Source: Verrucomicrobiia bacterium
GTDB lineage: Bacteria > Verrucomicrobiota > Verrucomicrobiia > Verrucomicrobiales > Akkermansiaceae
DNA length: 64,000 nt
Assembly (NCBI GenBank): GCA_030431475.1
Contig: JAUIJD010000006.1
Coordinates: 62,001 to 126,000 of the forward strand
Reading direction: 5' to 3'
Below, in pieces: positions 396 through 57,616 of the stretch; position 1 is the stretch's first letter; every line of letters starts with the position of its first letter. The notes beneath the pieces are model-generated. The model was not told where the DNA came from, did not search any database, and was given only the letters and a program-made list of their open reading frames with translations. The translations under genes and the position numbers were made by a program.

Positions 396-1148
396 ATGTC
401 CCGAATCCAGATCACCGCCCTCGTCGGACGAGCCACGTCCGGAGTGTCGATCTGTCCGTTCATCTGCGAGGACCACGAGGGAGGGTCTTGGTTCGTCAAG
501 CCCTCCGGCAGTTTACGGGAATCCCTGATCAGCGAATGGCTGGGGGCGCGTTTGGCGAACGAACTGGGCCTGCCCCTGCCCCGCCATGCAATCGCCGAGG
601 TGCCCGAAGGGCTGTCAAATGCCGAGGGTGCGAGCGAACTCCGCCCCGGTCCGGCCTTCGCCTCCGAGTCGCTGGCACCCGGAGCCACCGACCTGATGCC
701 GCACGATCTGGGTCGGGTTCGCCCCGAGATCCTGGCGGAAAGCCTTGTCTTCGACGCCTGGATTCGGAACGCGGACCGGCAGCTCGGCCCGACGGGTGGC
801 AATCCGAACGCGATGCTGGTGAGTCCAGGGAGTCGCTTCTTCCTGATTGATCACGACAACGCCTTCGACCCCGCTTTCGACGCCAAGACCTTAATGGCCC
901 ACCATCCAGGCCGGGAACAGGCGGCCGCATGGCTCGACCCCGGCCGACGGGCCGACTGGACTGGCCGAGCACGCAAAGCTTTCGACAAGATCGAGCAATT
1001 CTGGCAGGAATTGCCGCCGGAATGGGTGGAGGAGGAGGAAGGACCGGCTCCGGGGATCGAGGATTTCCTGGCCAGGGTTCTGGACATCCTGCGCCATCCG
1101 TTCGACCTTCCCGCCGACTTCTGGCGAACTCTTGACCCCACGAAGTGA
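396..1148 (+). CDS. HipA-like kinase family protein
   Basis: A 250-residue protein related to the short HipA-like kinase family, not full-length HipA. From residue ~118 it reads FDAWIRNADRQ, then GNPNAML, and near residues 149-156 FLIDHDNAFD. These match the catalytic-loop and metal-binding segments of HipA-type Ser/Thr kinases. The N-terminal part (FVKPSG..ESLISEWLGARLANELGLPLP) matches the ATP-binding lobe. Its stop overlaps the next start by one base (TGATG), so it is translationally coupled to the DUF3037-like gene, an arrangement often seen for this kinase class. A toxin or defence role is inferred from family and context; the substrate is unknown. Confidence 0.75.
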   Translation: MSRIQITALVGRATSGVSICPFICEDHEGGSWFVKPSGSLRESLISEWLGARLANELGLPLPRHAIAEVPEGLSNAEGASELRPGPAFASESLAPGATDLMPHDLGRVRPEILAESLVFDAWIRNADRQLGPTGGNPNAMLVSPGSRFFLIDHDNAFDPAFDAKTLMAHHPGREQAAAWLDPGRRADWTGRARKAFDKIEQFWQELPPEWVEEEEGPAPGIEDFLARVLDILRHPFDLPADFWRTLDPTK

Positions 1149-2047
1149 TGAAACCCACCGCTTTTCTCCACGGCACGATCGAACTGGTACCCTACGCGGA
1201 TCAGGGCGAGTTCGTGATCGTCGGCGTATTCGCGGTGGATCCGGGCGGGCGCACCCTGCATTGGCGCGTCCAGAAGCCGGTGAAGACTACGCGGCTGAGC
1301 GGATTTTTCCCCGAAATCGATCGCAAGCAATTCCGGGAGACCTTGAAACACCTCAACGAGGAATGGCGCGAACTCGGGGCGCAGATCAACAAGGGGATTG
1401 GCACCCGGGCCTTGGACTTTTCCGAAATGGACGGGACGCTGCTCTTCCGCACGCTCACCCAGCCCCGCGGCGGCAACCTCCGCTACCAAGCGCGGGGAAC
1501 TGTCATCGAGGCCGACATCGAGGGTTGGCTGGAGCGCCGATTCCGCAAGCTGGTGCTAAGGCAGGTCGAGGCAGTTGAAGCTCCTGAGGAGAAGCGTCTG
1601 ACCGACGATGTGCGCCGACAACTGCGCGAGTGGAAGGTCGCAAAGACCTGGAAGGAGGCAGTGATCGGCCCCGAAGCCTACCACGCCCGTTTCCCTTTTG
1701 CTTACCGGGATGAACCCGAGGCACCGGTTCAGCGAGCGATCAAGCCGCTCCATCTGGCGGGGCCTTCCCCGGTGCAGATTCTGGAGCATGGCGATACGTG
1801 GCTCCAAAAGATCCGGCGGCTGCGGCATTTCCGGGAAGCCCCCGAGGTCCTGATCTTTCCCCTCGCTTTTCCGGAACGTCCAGAGACGCCCCACTACGAA
1901 AACGCCCGGTTGGTGGCCGACGACCTCCAGAGTGAAGGCGTTGAAGTCCTCGACGCCGGGAAGCTAGTGGATCTGCGTCGGCACGTTCTCGAAGCGGGCA
2001 CGGACGACCTCGCCTTGTTTTCGAAAGGGGAACAACGTCCGGCGTGA
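1148..2047 (+). CDS. DUF3037-like protein, partner of the HipA-like kinase
   Basis: A 299-residue protein whose N-terminus (IELVPYADQGEFVIVGVFAVDPGG) resembles the DUF3037 opening 'v.P....EFvNvGVvl'. DUF3037 genes commonly sit next to short HipA-like kinases, and this one overlaps the kinase stop codon by one base. The rest of the protein is charged and soluble, with no signal peptide, membrane segment or recognisable catalytic motif. It is longer than the minimal DUF3037 domain. By position it could be the antitoxin, regulator or substrate of the kinase, but the sequence does not decide which. ATG at 1148 was chosen over GTG at 1145 because it gives the coupled TGATG junction. Confidence 0.6.
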   Translation: MKPTAFLHGTIELVPYADQGEFVIVGVFAVDPGGRTLHWRVQKPVKTTRLSGFFPEIDRKQFRETLKHLNEEWRELGAQINKGIGTRALDFSEMDGTLLFRTLTQPRGGNLRYQARGTVIEADIEGWLERRFRKLVLRQVEAVEAPEEKRLTDDVRRQLREWKVAKTWKEAVIGPEAYHARFPFAYRDEPEAPVQRAIKPLHLAGPSPVQILEHGDTWLQKIRRLRHFREAPEVLIFPLAFPERPETPHYENARLVADDLQSEGVEVLDAGKLVDLRRHVLEAGTDDLALFSKGEQRPA

Positions 2048-2083
2048 GCGTGCGGCAGGTCATCGACCTCATCGCCAATTTTC

Positions 2084-2106
2084 TGCTAATTTCCTCCTGA
2101 TTAGCA
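2084..2106. promoter_or_regulatory. Operator-like inverted repeat 1 upstream of fic
   Basis: A perfect inverted repeat, TGCTAAT-9 bases-ATTAGCA. It lies 65 bases before the fic start and 37 bases after the upstream stop. It shares its core and 9-base spacing with the second repeat at 2129-2159; the centres are about 49 bases apart. This is the expected layout for cooperative repressor binding over a promoter. Confidence 0.75.
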
Positions 2107-2128
2107 ATTGAGCTTGAGGAAAGGAAGA

Positions 2129-2159
2129 TTGCTGCTAATTTTGGCACGATTAGCAGCAA
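2129..2159. promoter_or_regulatory. Operator-like inverted repeat 2 upstream of fic
   Basis: A perfect inverted repeat with 11-base arms (TTGCTGCTAAT / ATTAGCAGCAA) and a 9-base spacer. It ends 12 bases before the fic ATG. The inner 7 bases of each arm are the same as in the repeat at 2084-2106. Its position overlaps the expected ribosome-binding region and start of transcription, so a bound protein would block expression. The fic product has a C-terminal winged-helix-like part that could be the ligand; this is inference. Confidence 0.75.
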
Positions 2160-2171
2160 ATCACCTGACGC

Positions 2172-3512
2172 ATGCGCCTGCCACGGCATCCACCCGATCT
2201 GACCGAGCTTTTGGGCGACCCCAAGCGCTTCATTTCGCTGATGCTGGGAGCGGAGGACGAAGCGAAACGCCGGGATCGCTACCTCCATTGGGAGGAACTG
2301 CGACACCGTCAGCCACCGGAGGGCTTGAGCCCGCAGGAGTGGTGGGCGGGCCTGAAGTTCCGGCGCATGTCCCAGCAACAGTGGATTCCTCTCACCGACC
2401 TTCGGGGGTCGAAGTTCAGCTTCTGGCTGACGCCCCGGATGTTCGAGCAACTGCACGACATCGACTTGAAGTGCGGAGGATCCGTCGAAGGCCCCGAACC
2501 CGTGACCAACCCGGAGACGCGCGACCGCTACTACGTGTCCTCGCTGGTCGAGGAGGCGATCACCTCCAGCCAGTTGGAAGGAGCGGCGGTGACCCGGTCG
2601 GTCGCGAAGGAGATGCTCCGCAGCGGACGCAAGCCGACGGACTCCGGTGAGCGGATGATCCTGAACAATTTCCTCACCATGAGGGAAATCAGCGGCTGGA
2701 AGGACCGCGACCTGACGCCGGAGCTGGTGCTGGAAATGCACCGGATGATCTCCCGCGGAACCCTGGAAGATCCGACCAAGGAAGGAGTGTTCCGAACGCC
2801 GGATGATCAGGTCCGGGTGGAGGATGACAGCACTGGTGAAATCGTCCACGTTCCCCCGAAGGCCGAGGAACTGCCCGCCCGGCTCCAGGCCCTTTGTGAT
2901 TTTGCCAACGATCCCAGGATGGAGGGTTACCTTCATCCGGTGATCCGCTCGATCATCCTGCATTTCTGGGTGGCTTACGATCACCCCTTCGTCGATGGCA
3001 ACGGTCGGACGGCGCGGGCCGTGTTCTACTGGTCGATGCTTCGGCACGGATTCTGGCTGTTCGAGTTTGTCTCGATCTCGCAACAGATCCTCCAGTCGCC
3101 CAAGAAATACTACCGCGCCTTTCTCTTCACAGAGACCGACGGCAACGACCTGAATTACTTCATCCTGCATCAGCTGGGCGTCGTTCAAAAGGCGATCGAC
3201 AAGCTGCACGATTACATCCGAAGGAAGTCGGACGAACTGGCCGAAATGCGGAGCCTGCTGGACAACCGCAGCGGCTTCAACCACCGGCAGCTCGCCTTGC
3301 TTCGCTATGCGCTGAAGCATCCGACCGCCACCTTCACCGTGGCCAGCCACCAACACAGCCACAACGTCGTGCCGCAGACCGCCCGCACCGATCTCGAGGA
3401 GCTGGTCCGGCTTGAGCTGCTGAAGAAGGCCCGCGTCGGGAAGGCGTTTCTCTACGCCCCGGTGCCGGACCTTCCTGATCGACTGCGGAACCTTCCCAGT
3501 GCCTTCGATTGA
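2172..3512 (+). CDS. Fic family protein (adenylyltransferase-type) with C-terminal winged helix
   Basis: A 446-residue Fic protein. The core motif HPFVDGNGRTAR lies at residues ~271-282 and is complete, with the catalytic His, acidic residue and nucleotide-binding Arg. An inhibitory-helix motif (TSSQLEG, residues ~131-137) precedes the core, marking a class II, self-inhibited Fic. An N-terminal Fic_N-like region comes before it, and the C-terminus (~370-446, FNHRQLALLRYALKHPTATFTVASH...TARTDLEELVRLELL) looks like a winged helix. Fic enzymes usually transfer AMP to target proteins. ATG at 2172 is the first start after an in-frame stop. Two operators precede the gene, and a type I R subunit gene follows 90 bases later. 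The target is unknown. Confidence 0.9.
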   Translation: MRLPRHPPDLTELLGDPKRFISLMLGAEDEAKRRDRYLHWEELRHRQPPEGLSPQEWWAGLKFRRMSQQQWIPLTDLRGSKFSFWLTPRMFEQLHDIDLKCGGSVEGPEPVTNPETRDRYYVSSLVEEAITSSQLEGAAVTRSVAKEMLRSGRKPTDSGERMILNNFLTMREISGWKDRDLTPELVLEMHRMISRGTLEDPTKEGVFRTPDDQVRVEDDSTGEIVHVPPKAEELPARLQALCDFANDPRMEGYLHPVIRSIILHFWVAYDHPFVDGNGRTARAVFYWSMLRHGFWLFEFVSISQQILQSPKKYYRAFLFTETDGNDLNYFILHQLGVVQKAIDKLHDYIRRKSDELAEMRSLLDNRSGFNHRQLALLRYALKHPTATFTVASHQHSHNVVPQTARTDLEELVRLELLKKARVGKAFLYAPVPDLPDRLRNLPSAFD

Positions 3513-3602
3513 TGGGTTGCCGGTCGGGATGCTTGGCTCCGTTAGGGATTGCGGTAACACCGGAATCCATGGGAAACCTCGGGTGCTGGCCATGAGGGCG
3601 TC

Positions 3603-6600
3603 ATGGCCGGTCGAGCGAGACCGACCATGAGCAACTTCACCTTCCTCCCCGCCGAGTTCCGCTCGATCGCCGAGGCCGCGACGAAGGCGGAGGGCCACAT
3701 CCACGGCGACCCACGGGCGGCTTGCTTCCATGCCCGCTTCGCGCTGGAGGCGATGGTCCACTGGCTCTACCGGCACGATCCGGCGCTGCGGATGCCCTAC
3801 GACCAGAGCCTCGGCGCTCTGCTCCACGAGCCCAGCTTCCAGAACCTGCTGCCGGAGGCGGTCTTCCAGAAGGCGCGGGTGGTCCAGAAGCGGGGCAACG
3901 ACGCCGTCCACAGCCAGCGGCCGATCCGCCAATACGACGCGCTCCAGGTGGTCAAGGAGCTGCACCATCTCTGCTACTGGCTGGTCCGGACCTATGCCCC
4001 GCAGGCGTCACGCGAGGGAGCGGCGTGGCGGGACGACCGGGTGCCATCCGCCCCGGACAACGCTGCGACGGTGCCACGCAAGGAGTTGGAGGCGCTGGAG
4101 AAGCAGCTCGCCGAGCGAAACGAGGAGGCGCTGAAGCAGCAACGGGAGCGCGATGAACTGGATGCCGAGCTGCAACGGCTGCGGCAGGAGGTCGAGGCGG
4201 TGCGCCAGACCCAGGAGGCGGTTCCGGATTCCCACGATTACTCGGAGGCGGAAACCCGCCGCTACCTGATCGACGTGGAGCTGCGGCGGGCCGGGTGGAA
4301 GCTGAACGGTCCGAACGATCGCGAGTACAAGGTGACCGGTATGCCCAACGTGCAGGGCATCGGCTACGTCGATTATGTCCTGTGGGGTGACGATGGTCTG
4401 CCGCTGGCGGTGGTCGAGGCGAAGAAGACCGGCGTCGATCCCGAGGTCGGCCGCCAGCAAGCGAAGCTCTACGCCGACGCGCTGGAGAAGATGCACGGCC
4501 GGCGACCGCTGATCTTCTACACCAATGGTTACACGATCTGGCTGTGGGACGACACGACCTACCCGCCGCGCCGGGTGGCCGGGTTCTACAAGAAGGACGA
4601 ACTCGCCCGCCTGATCCATCGCCGCACCCAGCGCGCCGCACTGGACGTGGCGCCGCTGAACATGTCCATCGTTGAACGCTACTACCAGAAGCGGGTGATC
4701 GGCAGCATCTGCGGCCACTTCACCGACGCCCAACGCAAGGCGCTGCTGGTGATGGCCACCGGCACCGGCAAGACCCGCACGGCGATTGCGCTTGTCGATC
4801 TGCTGCAACGCGCCGGCTGGGTGAAGCGGGCGCTCTTCCTCGCCGACCGGGTGTCGCTGGTGAACCAGGCGTGCAACGCCTTCAAGACCCACCTGCCCGA
4901 GGCCAGTCCGGTGAACCTCGTCACGGAGAAGGACGGTCAGGGCCGGGTTTTCGTCTGCACCTACCCGACGATGATGGGCCTCATCGACCAGTCCGACGGC
5001 GACCTGGCGCGGTTCGGGGTCGGGCATTTCGACCTCGTGATCATCGACGAGGCGCACCGCTCGGTTTACCAGCGATACGGGGCGATCTTCCGCTACTTCG
5101 ATTCGCTACTGGTCGGCCTGACCGCCACGCCCCGCGAGGAGATCGACAAGAACACCTACGACCTCTTCGACCTCGAATCCGGCGTGCCGACCGATGCCTA
5201 CGAGCTGACGAAGGCGGTCAGCGACGGCTTCCTTGTGCCCTACCAGGCCGAGCAGGTGGACCTGCGCTTTCCCCGCGAGGGGATCGACTACGACTCGCTG
5301 AGCGACGAGGAAAAGGCCCAGTGGGAAAGCCTCGACTGGGGCGACGACGAGGAGCAGCCGTTGCCCGACCGGGTGAACGCGGCGGCGGTCAACAGTTGGC
5401 TCTTCAACAAGGACACCGTGGACAAGGTGCTCCAGCACCTGATGGAACACGGCCACAAGGTCGAGGGCGGCGACCGACTCGGGAAGACGATCATCTTCGC
5501 CCGCAACCACGACCACGCGAAGTTCATCGAGGAACGGTTCAACCACCACTACCCCCAGCACGCCGGCCATTTCGCCCGCGTGATCGACAACCAGTCGAAG
5601 TATCCGCAGAGCCTCATCGACGACTTCTCGGAGAAGGACAAGGCCCCGCACATCGCGATCTCGGTGGACATGCTCGATACCGGCATCGACGTGCCCGAGG
5701 TGGTGAACCTCGTGTTTTTCAAGCCGGTGTATTCCAAGATCAAGTTCTGGCAGATGATCGGCCGGGGCACGCGACTGTGCCCGGATCTCTTCGGGCCGGA
5801 TGAGCCCAAGCAGAACTTCCGGATCTTCGACTTCTGCTTCAACTTCGACTTCTTCCGCGAGAACCCGGACGGGATCAACGCCAGCGACAGCCCGCCGCTC
5901 GGCACGCGGCTTTTCCGGGCACGGGTGCAACTGCTCGGGCATGTTCAGGCGCACCCGGAACTGGACCCAGACGCCGGGCTCGGATCGTCGCTGGCCAACA
6001 TGCTGCATGCCGAGGTGGCCTCGATGAACGAGGAGAACTTCATCGTCAGGATGAACCGCGAGGTCGTGGAGCGGTTTCAGGACCGGGGGGTGTGGGATCG
6101 ACTGAGCGAAGCCGACCGCGAGACTTTGCAGCGGGAGGTCGCCGGGCTGCCGTCGCAGATCGAGACCGACGATCTCGAGTCGCGGCTGTTCGACCTCACG
6201 GCGCTGCGGATGCAACTGGCGCTGCTGGGGGCTGACGCGGCCGTCTTCGAAGGCCTGCGCAAGCGGGTAGTGGAAGTCGCCTGCCTGCTGGAGGAGAAGG
6301 CGGCGGTACCGGCGGTGGCGGCGCAACTCGAATACCTCGCCCGCGTGCAGGAGGCCGAGTTCTGGCAAGGCATGGACCTCCCGACACTGGAGGACCTGCG
6401 TCTCCGGTTGCGGGGACTTGTGCCCTTCCTCGACAAGAAGAAGCGGAAGATCGTTTACACCGACTTCAAGGACGAGGTGCTCGGGATCCGACCGGAGGAG
6501 GGGCTGGAAGTGCCGTCGATGACCGGTGCGCAGTATGAGAAAAAGGTGCAGGCCTACCTGCGTGAGCACCTCGACGATCTGGTGATCCACCGGCTTCGGA

Positions 6601-7016
6601 CGAACGAACCGCTGACACCGACCGATCTTGAGGAACTGGAGCGGACTCTGGCAGCCATCGGCGAGGCGGATGGCGAAACCCTGCTCGCCGGCCTGCTGGA
6701 GCGGAGCGGCGCTCCGTCACTGATACATTTCATTCGCGGAATCGTCGGCATGGATCGAGCAGCGGCCCAAGCGGCGTTCGCCGAATTTCTAAACGACCGG
6801 AGCCTCACCGCCCCGCAAATCCGCTTCATCGAAATGGTGATCGATCAGCTCACGGCCCGCGGCGTGATGGACGCCTCCGCGCTCTACGACCCCCCCTTCA
6901 ACAGCCTCCACGCCGGCGGGCCAGATGAGCTATTCGCTGGCCGCGAGAACGTGATCGAGGGCATTTTCGAAGCACTGAACAGAGTCACCCCCCCGGTAGA
7001 TAGGACTGCGGGATAA
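3603..7016 (+). CDS. hsdR: Type I restriction enzyme R subunit (HsdR, EcoKI/EcoEI-like)
   Basis: A 1137-residue DNA translocase/nuclease. In order: DUF4145-like N-terminus (~20-125), coiled coil (~158-207), PD-(D/E)xK nuclease segment with GYVDYVLW and VVEAKKT (~253-275), Walker A MATGTGKT (~384-391), DEAH box IIDEAHR (~480), GLTATP, the helicase motif WQMIGRGTRL, and an EcoEI_R_C-type end (QIRFIEMVIDQLTARG...LYDPPF). Length and order match EcoKI-type HsdR. GAGGG precedes ATG 3603, but homologues tend to begin 'MSNF', so ATG 3627 is an equally good start. No hsdM or hsdS is present in the window, so alone it should not restrict DNA unless partners lie elsewhere. Confidence 0.9.
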   Translation: MAGRARPTMSNFTFLPAEFRSIAEAATKAEGHIHGDPRAACFHARFALEAMVHWLYRHDPALRMPYDQSLGALLHEPSFQNLLPEAVFQKARVVQKRGNDAVHSQRPIRQYDALQVVKELHHLCYWLVRTYAPQASREGAAWRDDRVPSAPDNAATVPRKELEALEKQLAERNEEALKQQRERDELDAELQRLRQEVEAVRQTQEAVPDSHDYSEAETRRYLIDVELRRAGWKLNGPNDREYKVTGMPNVQGIGYVDYVLWGDDGLPLAVVEAKKTGVDPEVGRQQAKLYADALEKMHGRRPLIFYTNGYTIWLWDDTTYPPRRVAGFYKKDELARLIHRRTQRAALDVAPLNMSIVERYYQKRVIGSICGHFTDAQRKALLVMATGTGKTRTAIALVDLLQRAGWVKRALFLADRVSLVNQACNAFKTHLPEASPVNLVTEKDGQGRVFVCTYPTMMGLIDQSDGDLARFGVGHFDLVIIDEAHRSVYQRYGAIFRYFDSLLVGLTATPREEIDKNTYDLFDLESGVPTDAYELTKAVSDGFLVPYQAEQVDLRFPREGIDYDSLSDEEKAQWESLDWGDDEEQPLPDRVNAAAVNSWLFNKDTVDKVLQHLMEHGHKVEGGDRLGKTIIFARNHDHAKFIEERFNHHYPQHAGHFARVIDNQSKYPQSLIDDFSEKDKAPHIAISVDMLDTGIDVPEVVNLVFFKPVYSKIKFWQMIGRGTRLCPDLFGPDEPKQNFRIFDFCFNFDFFRENPDGINASDSPPLGTRLFRARVQLLGHVQAHPELDPDAGLGSSLANMLHAEVASMNEENFIVRMNREVVERFQDRGVWDRLSEADRETLQREVAGLPSQIETDDLESRLFDLTALRMQLALLGADAAVFEGLRKRVVEVACLLEEKAAVPAVAAQLEYLARVQEAEFWQGMDLPTLEDLRLRLRGLVPFLDKKKRKIVYTDFKDEVLGIRPEEGLEVPSMTGAQYEKKVQAYLREHLDDLVIHRLRTNEPLTPTDLEELERTLAAIGEADGETLLAGLLERSGAPSLIHFIRGIVGMDRAAAQAAFAEFLNDRSLTAPQIRFIEMVIDQLTARGVMDASALYDPPFNSLHAGGPDELFAGRENVIEGIFEALNRVTPPVDRTAG

Positions 7017-56782: not shown

Positions 56783-57616
56783 ATGCCTCCGCCCGACGGC
56801 ACACTCATCCGCGAGTCCGCGACCCTTCCGGTTGCCGGTCGCGGCTGGTGGTGGTGGCCGGTCGAAACCGTGGCGGCCATCGGCGCCTTCGCCTACTGGG
56901 GCGTCTTCGGGCTCCTCTTCACCCTCGCCTCACTGCCGCTCCGCCTCGTGCTTCCCCGCCGGCGGGCCGAGATCCTCGGCCGCGGTCTTCTGCACCGCGC
57001 CTTCCGCGTGTTCGTCCGCTACCTGCGGGTGACGGGGCTCGTGTATGCCGACCTCGGCACGCTGAAGTCGCTGCGCCAGCTCAAGGAGCCGGTCATCATC
57101 GCCCCCAACCACACCTCGCTGTGGGACGCCGTGTTCGTCATCGCCTGCCTGCCCCAGCCGATCTGCATCATGAAGGACAGCATCCTTCGGAATCCCTTCC
57201 TCGGCGGTGGCGCGCGGCTCGCCGGCTACATTCCCAACGGCTGCTCGTCGCGCCTGGTGCGCGAAGCGGCCGATGCCCTCCAGCACGGCGGGCAGCTCCT
57301 GCTCTTCCCGGAAGGCACCCGCACCCGCCACGACCGGCGCTGGATCAACCCCCTCAAGGGCGGCTGCGCCCTCATCGCCCGACGCGCCGGCGTCCCGGTC
57401 CTGCCCGTCTTCATCCGCAGCAACACGCGCTTCCTCGAGAAGGGCTGGCCGCTCTGGAAGCGCCCCGAGTTCCCCATCCGCATCAGCTTCGAGCTCGGCG
57501 ACGCGCTCGAACCGGGCACCGAAGAGTCCGCCAAGCAGTTCACGTCCCGGCTGCAGCGGGTCTACGAGGGCCATCTTTCCCGGGCCCACAAGCTGCGCCG
57601 CCAGATCGAGGAGTGA
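56783..57616 (+). CDS. 1-acyl-sn-glycerol-3-phosphate acyltransferase family protein (PlsC-like)
   Basis: A 277-residue acyltransferase. NHTSLWDAVFVIACL (NHxxxxD) and LLFPEGTRTRHDRRW are the two diagnostic motifs, with a hydrophobic N-terminal anchor (ETVAAIGAFAYWGVFGLLFTLASL). It esterifies an acyl chain to a lysophospholipid or other hydroxyl acceptor at the inner membrane. It is divergent from the dehydratase gene and is likely the last enzyme of the neighbouring lipid group, or the cell's general PlsC. Confidence 0.88.
   Translation: MPPPDGTLIRESATLPVAGRGWWWWPVETVAAIGAFAYWGVFGLLFTLASLPLRLVLPRRRAEILGRGLLHRAFRVFVRYLRVTGLVYADLGTLKSLRQLKEPVIIAPNHTSLWDAVFVIACLPQPICIMKDSILRNPFLGGGARLAGYIPNGCSSRLVREAADALQHGGQLLLFPEGTRTRHDRRWINPLKGGCALIARRAGVPVLPVFIRSNTRFLEKGWPLWKRPEFPIRISFELGDALEPGTEESAKQFTSRLQRVYEGHLSRAHKLRRQIEE

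Follow-up and report, generated by a model that had tools for sequence, protein, structure and literature searches.

A class II Fic protein that probably binds two palindromic operators in its own promoter, and a correspondence between recognition helix and operator among its relatives

We found that two matched palindromes in front of a fic gene of a Verrucomicrobiia bacterium are probably operators of the Fic protein encoded there. In the reading that we favor, to which we give a probability of about 0.8, a class II, SoFic-like AMPylator binds both sites in its own promoter through a C-terminal winged helix, most likely as a repressor. Coordinates are those of the window, that is, the whole stretch of 64,000 nucleotides analyzed, and the loci of the survey are numbered with an L. 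The two sites are:

2084..2106, no strand: operator site 1 (predicted), TGCTAAT-N9-ATTAGCA with no mismatch, same layout in homologues
2129..2159, no strand: operator site 2 (predicted), core TGCTAAT-N9-ATTAGCA at 2133-2155, perfect 11-base arms

The sequence-only reading had described two matched TGCTAAT-N9-ATTAGCA repeats 49 bases apart, the second with perfect 11-base arms ending 12 bases before the fic ATG, and had found the site at no other gene of the window. All of this held: both copies are exact (2084-2106 and 2133-2155) and lie 49 bases apart from start to start, the arms of site 2 occupy 2129-2139 and 2149-2159, and 12 bases separate the arm end from the ATG at 2172. These are the only two matches in the window at up to three mismatches; 100 dinucleotide shuffles gave 0.11 on average and 1 at most. 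A third copy is absent from the bacterium's own genome (4.73 Mb; 4,728,419 bases in 109 contigs) at up to two mismatches, while the control, the pattern read backwards, has one match there at the same setting.

The gene behind the sites and its parts are as follows:

2172..3512, + strand: fic, 446 amino acids, class II Fic protein with a C-terminal winged helix (Pfam, PADLOC, and structure model)
2565..2582, + strand: inhibitory motif SSQLEG, residues 132-137, N-terminal to the Fic core (alignment)
2982..3008, + strand: catalytic Fic motif HPFVDGNGR, residues 271-279 (alignment of 29 rows)
3282..3461, + strand: predicted winged helix-turn-helix domain, residues 371-430 (AlphaFold2 model; VIA-align row 2d1h_A)
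3372..3410, + strand: predicted recognition helix PQTARTDLEELVR, residues 401-413 (AlphaFold2 model; residues 401, 402, and 406 track the operator letters)

The product matches the Pfam Fic family well above its cut-off of 24 bits (67.9 bits, 1.4e-18). Among the 29 aligned rows, P272, F273, G276, N277, G278, and R279 of the catalytic motif are invariant and H271 and D275 are kept in at least 90%; in the inhibitory motif, S132, E136, and G137 are invariant. The former fits the class II pattern HPFx[D/E]GN[G/K]R, with the Fic fold given by Pfam and the fold comparison, and the latter fits [S/T]xxxE[G/N]; together, they suggest a class II Fic that inhibits itself and whose active-site motif is intact. 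The winged-helix-like region that had been proposed for the C-terminus reappears in the AlphaFold2 model (29 aligned rows), which predicts helices at 371-382, 390-397, and 401-413 followed by strands at 417-422 and 425-430, with a mean pLDDT of 85.9 overall and of 84-96 in ten-residue blocks over 371-430. In VIA-align, 2d1h_A matches residues 355-446 of the model (Z 11.6, rmsd 2.4, 90 residues), and it is the only row to cover this part, the others testing mainly residues 4-362. Foldseek places SoFic, CbFic2, Dde_2494, a Mycobacterium marinum Fic, and 7xux among the nearest solved structures, the best rows being SoFic/Sofic (PDB 3eqx, 3zcn). The PADLOC SoFic model matches the product with 144.1 bits (1.7e-42), but the NCBIfam SoFic equivalog (NF046030) gives only 53.8 bits against a cut-off of 550, and for this reason we call the protein SoFic-like rather than SoFic.

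Relatives of fic were collected from several sets of genomes: the phylum to which the window belongs (matches in 32 of 387) and, with a stricter limit, its class (20 of 384), the own genome being included in both; the class that contains a Rhodocyclales genome (38 of 369); and the phyla of a Prevotella (7 of 247) and of a planctomycete (18 of 246). To these were added two plasmid relatives and, out of 475 loci in named genomes, the 80 best. The 128 loci above 195 bits were reduced to 111 by dropping 17 that were cut, lacked a fitting start, or were duplicates; this set includes the window's own fic and a near-identical pair (L030 and L031) and leaves out 2 matches of the window's phylum and 8 of the Rhodocyclales class. 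The nine genomes of the same genus within the phylum and class sets had no match to fic. In viral contigs, the operator pattern occurred 5 times, and tblastn found no fic relative there.

A perfect 7-bp inverted repeat with a spacer of 7, 9, or 11 is present upstream of fic in 68 of the 111 loci, in several phyla, compared with 2/111 and 6/111 control segments inside the gene, 8/109 after it, and 5/105 further upstream. With spacer 9 alone, 49 such repeats lie between -140 and +3, where 50 shuffles gave a mean of 2.4 and never more than 8. A finder blind to the proteins called at least two sites in 63 loci, one in 46, and none in 2, its weaker calls including chance matches. The half-site letters vary among relatives (TGCTAAT, TACTAAT, TATCAAT, TCCTAAT, TACCAAT, GGCTAAT). 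Thus, the expectation that homologues would carry the same site stood for the layout and failed for the literal TGCTAAT, which we dropped as a general site; a plain search for it would mostly come back empty and wrongly refute the idea, since the letters differ while the layout is kept. The centre-to-centre distance also varies (median 46 in 48 genes; the values of 18 in L007, L009, and L010 and of 29 in L006 are not real, being overlapping half-sites of opposite sense that were paired), which rules out a fixed looping or tetramer geometry.

The sites are close to exclusive to fic. In ten genomes with a TACTAAT-type fic, TACTAAT-N9-ATTAGTA occurs 17 times when up to one mismatch is allowed; 16 of these copies stand immediately in front of fic, and the other is in G295:C28. 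It is absent from two further genomes with other helix types, and the pattern read backwards matches once in all twelve genomes. By this measure, Fic has a single predicted target.

The letters of the operator are related to the recognition helix of the adjacent Fic. We sorted the 111 loci by residues 401-402 and counted a hexamer when it was present at least twice, the hexamer lists, here and in the tree test below, having been compiled after inspecting the sequences. TACTAA accompanies YQ in 26 of 27 loci and TATCAA accompanies YA in 15 of 17; TCCTAA goes with NQ (3/3) and HQ (2/3), and TGCTAA with TQ (3/3) and with the window's own PQ. Other groups are mixed: RQ has GGCTAA in 5/9, TGCTAA in 2/9, and none in 2/9; YE has TACTAA in 2/5, TACCAA in 1/5, and none in 2/5; and YD has TACCAA in 3/10 and TACTTG in 6/10, the latter six with V or I instead of T at position 403. 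TACTAA was also counted in one of two NF rows and in the QQ row. None of the eight hexamers occurs twice in 33 of the 111 loci, many of which have other palindromes. L016, which lacks the C-terminus, is an unclassed row here and was left out of the helix tests. The six TACTTG loci (L144, L147, L149, L156, L157, and L159) have a helix of the form SYD(V/I)ARKDLL and a TACTTG palindrome with no CTAA-type sites, and look like a distinct branch of the code.

A scan of protein columns with at most 20% gaps against half-sites called without the proteins (57 genes, in 7 of which the half-site is off the main pattern, that of L138 being real-looking in a shifted register and the others perhaps chance) gave residues 402, 401, and 406, all in the modeled recognition helix, as the best predictors; base 2 is best predicted by 401, and bases 3 and 4 by 402. 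The partial Mantel correlation of operator with helix, given the rest of the protein, is 0.61 (reached in 0 of 2,000 permutations, largest 0.28), and that of operator with the rest, given the helix, is -0.04. With the nearest helix as predictor, bases 2-4 come out right in 75, 75, 74, and 71% of cases at Fic-part divergences of at least 0, 30, 40, and 45%, versus 54, 47, 32, and 46% for the nearest rest of the protein and 25-26% for random choice. These covariation tests are only partly corrected for descent. On a quick tree of 83 of the 111 proteins made with the winged helix left out, Q402 occurs with CTAA 43 times and A402 with TCAA 16 times, with none reversed and 3 of each unlabeled; among the Q402 rows, 24 combine Y401 with TACTAA and 18 combine a different residue with a different second base, and one row is an exception. 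The independent pairs on well-supported branches run in the predicted direction, and with only three of them for residue 402 and two for 401 the tree test alone is not significant.

Among relatives, the half-site changes together with residues 401, 402, and 406 of the neighboring Fic, and this points to Fic itself, as had been suggested from the sequence, and not to a separate regulator. We consider it very unlikely that a regulator coded elsewhere binds the sites while the winged helix of Fic serves only in dimerization or activity control. A role other than DNA binding is conceivable for such a domain, since the C-terminal domain of EcSofic is reported to regulate toxicity (PMC12249575). However, the operator letters track recognition-helix positions of Fic across phyla, and such a regulator would have to travel with fic, whereas among the 20 of 117 neighbor proteins that were annotated with Pfam, the sole shared family is 6-phosphogluconate dehydrogenase (L196 and L205).

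How the sites are placed relative to the promoter bears on what bound Fic would do. The promoter itself is a weak candidate:

2107..2171, + strand: presumed promoter region, weak candidate TTGAGG-N17-AATTTT (7/12 matches)

Its candidate -35 lies between sites 1 and 2 and its candidate -10 inside site 2; a scan of 1900-3800 for a consensus (sigma-70-like) promoter gave none at threshold, and a single terminator-like site was found in the same range (2210-2225), fewer than in shuffles. Of 43 genes with two sites, 17 have a best -10 candidate that overlaps site 2. For the 21 genes with a promoter score of at least 8, the overlap is found in 6, and in 8 the -35 candidate is the last six bases of the right arm of site 1, a coincidence partly forced by the half-site letters TTGATA and not taken as proof of repression. 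In the two-site relatives, the second site ends near the start codon and thus covers the likely start region. Since the sites flank the presumed -35 and cover the presumed -10 together with the start region, bound Fic would most likely block transcription, and it is the second site near the start codon, together with the self-repression of CccR (see below), that made us choose repression.

A different arrangement is seen in six Akkermansia-type relatives (L015, L019, L020, L036, L123, and L125, of which L036 is recorded as Akkermansia and the other five are placed there by inference), where, by eye, the half-sites precede a TTGAC-type -35 and leave the -10 uncovered. These loci also have, by eye, a TATAAT-like -10 with the ATG 6-7 bases after it, which suggests leaderless transcripts. 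For such sites, promoter-covering repression is no obvious explanation, and there may be room for activation in part of the family. It seems unlikely that Fic binds the sites through its winged helix but activates, or activates at site 1 and represses at site 2 as restriction controller proteins do. The position of site 1 just upstream of the presumed -35 and the uncovered -10 of the Akkermansia-type relatives would suit it; the second site over the likely start region in two-site relatives would not, and a self-activating toxin would be risky. CccR, the only tested case that we found, also represses (PMC9755527).

The same placements speak to whether the palindromes work in RNA, as attenuators or leader hairpins, instead of as DNA sites. 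Inverted repeats just before a start codon could be read in this way, and in L004 and L021 an arm overlaps the likely ribosome-binding site (by eye). Nevertheless, the spacer is mostly 9 while the arms vary with the recognition helix, the same half-site appears twice, and the sites of the six Akkermansia-type relatives, being upstream of the promoter, would be outside the transcript, so that we regard an RNA role as scarcely credible.

In the repressor reading that we prefer, the C-terminal winged helix would bind both TGCTAAT-N9-ATTAGCA palindromes, presumably as one dimer each, and bound Fic would block its own promoter, so that a potentially toxic, probably anti-phage enzyme would be held at a low level until released by a signal or by a drop in Fic; the downstream hsdR would possibly be under joint control with fic. 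What the analysis shows is that the sites exist, that relatives keep their layout, that they are nearly confined to fic, and that they covary with the recognition helix; we infer the physical binding, the one dimer per site, the repression, the anti-phage role, and the signal. An anti-phage role is probable from the similarity to the SoFic model and the place of the gene beside hsdM-, hsdS-, and hsdR-like genes, the last of which follows fic:

3603..7016, + strand: hsdR-like type I restriction subunit (PADLOC REase_I 1.5e-176; Pfam ResIII, EcoEI_R_C, HSDR_N)

The true start of hsdR may be the ATG at 3627, and the gene, directly downstream, possibly shares the fic promoter. Upstream on the same contig are a gene that by eye looks like a tyrosine integrase and has no NCBIfam match, a second Fic gene whose match spans most of the SoFic model, and genes resembling hsdM and hsdS that score below the curated cut-offs, after which the order is HipA_2, DUF3037, fic, and hsdR. 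The HipA_2 kinase-like and DUF3037 genes (window 396-2047) overlap by 4 bases and match the PADLOC candidate pair PDC-M66A/PDC-M66B. The second Fic gene of the island (L186:7278-8432) has, by eye, an unrelated inverted repeat, CTTTTAAAGAAAAG ... TTTTTCTTTAAAAG, at L186:7186-7218 (about 57185-57217 of its own contig, C6), roughly 60-90 bases before its start; from this repeat, self-operators may extend to other Fic subfamilies.

An hsdR gene follows fic in 3 of the 111 loci (the window, L011, and L150), as counted with two hsdR queries in loci that mostly had 1.5-kb flanks, the query for L011 coming from its own genome (L195). In that genome (L195/L011), the order is hsdM, hsdS, a GmrSD-like gene, fic, and hsdR, and 4 bases separate the fic stop from the next ATG. 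Among 47 loci with longer flanks, many still short, the window's hsd queries match only L195 (hsdM and hsdS) and L058 (hsdM, weakly). On these counts, we rejected type I restriction as a general partner of fic. The annotated neighbors in other genomes are mostly unrelated to each other and to defense, which makes fic look like a cassette of its own that in some cases precedes a restriction gene.

A more far-reaching version, which we consider doubtful, joins these threads: the AMPylator would double as controller of the type I restriction subunit, with HsdR limited until methylation is in place, within a wider family code. The two operators before fic-hsdR would then delay HsdR as well as limit it, and during phage infection a change of state of Fic (whether by ATP binding, by release of the inhibitory helix, or by self-AMPylation) would also free the promoter, so that abortive toxin and restriction would rise at the same time. 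More generally, proteins that join Fic to a winged helix would form a large family of enzyme-repressors, mostly with one target per genome, themselves, in which base 2 would be set by residue 401 and bases 3 and 4 by residues 402 and 406.

If the repressor reading is true, the DNA target, the residues that read it, and the usual target (the own promoter) could be predicted from sequence alone for members in several phyla. One published case would become a testable rule and would provide orthogonal repressors with an enzyme attached; in three of the loci, the promoter of an AMPylator would be tied to a restriction gene.

Restriction-modification controller (C) proteins are autoregulators with two operator sites before their own gene and the restriction gene; in contrast to the window Fic, they are helix-turn-helix proteins that lack an enzyme domain, and they occur mainly in type II systems. 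Among Fic proteins, class II makes up 80% of the family, with functions and control nearly unexplored according to the discussion of PMC9755527. In the accessible open-access literature, a scope that most subscription papers fall outside, we found neither a family-wide double-N9 operator nor a helix-operator code in print, and CccR is the only published sequence-specific Fic self-regulator that we found.

The window Fic resembles SoFic/Sofic in combining a Fic domain, a C-terminal winged domain, and an inhibitory helix (PDB 3eqx, 3zcn; PMC12249575). Sofic is a single-gene anti-phage AMPylator whose C-terminal domain is critical for toxicity, and the accessible part of that work describes no operator or DNA binding (PMC12249575); DNA binding by SoFic had not been demonstrated according to PMC10628234. 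The same source describes CbFic2 (PDB 8cil), like the window Fic a class II Fic with a winged helix-turn-helix, as shown to bind DNA, of random sequence and with no specific site known, and as AMPylating histone H3 (PMC10628234).

The closest parallel is CccR of Yersinia pseudotuberculosis, a Fic-HTH protein that represses its own gene via palindromes near -35 and -10 (PMC9755527). Both are class II Fic proteins with an N-terminal inhibitory motif and a C-terminal helix-turn-helix in the same chain (in the window, by the AlphaFold2 model), and CccR is a dimer (PMC9755527). PDB 7xux, probably CccR judging from its 380 residues and release date, matches the window Fic weakly at the sequence level (phmmer 6.9e-10). 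The operator of CccR consists of a single pair of 10-bp arms with 26 bp between them (PMC9755527), whereas the window has two separate N9 palindromes; the inner half-sites of the window are also 26 bp apart, a likeness that is probably a coincidence, since this distance differs among relatives. CccR is a type VI secretion system effector (PMC9755527). For the predicted binding of the window Fic to its own promoter with repression, as in CccR, the support is the covariation of helix and operator.
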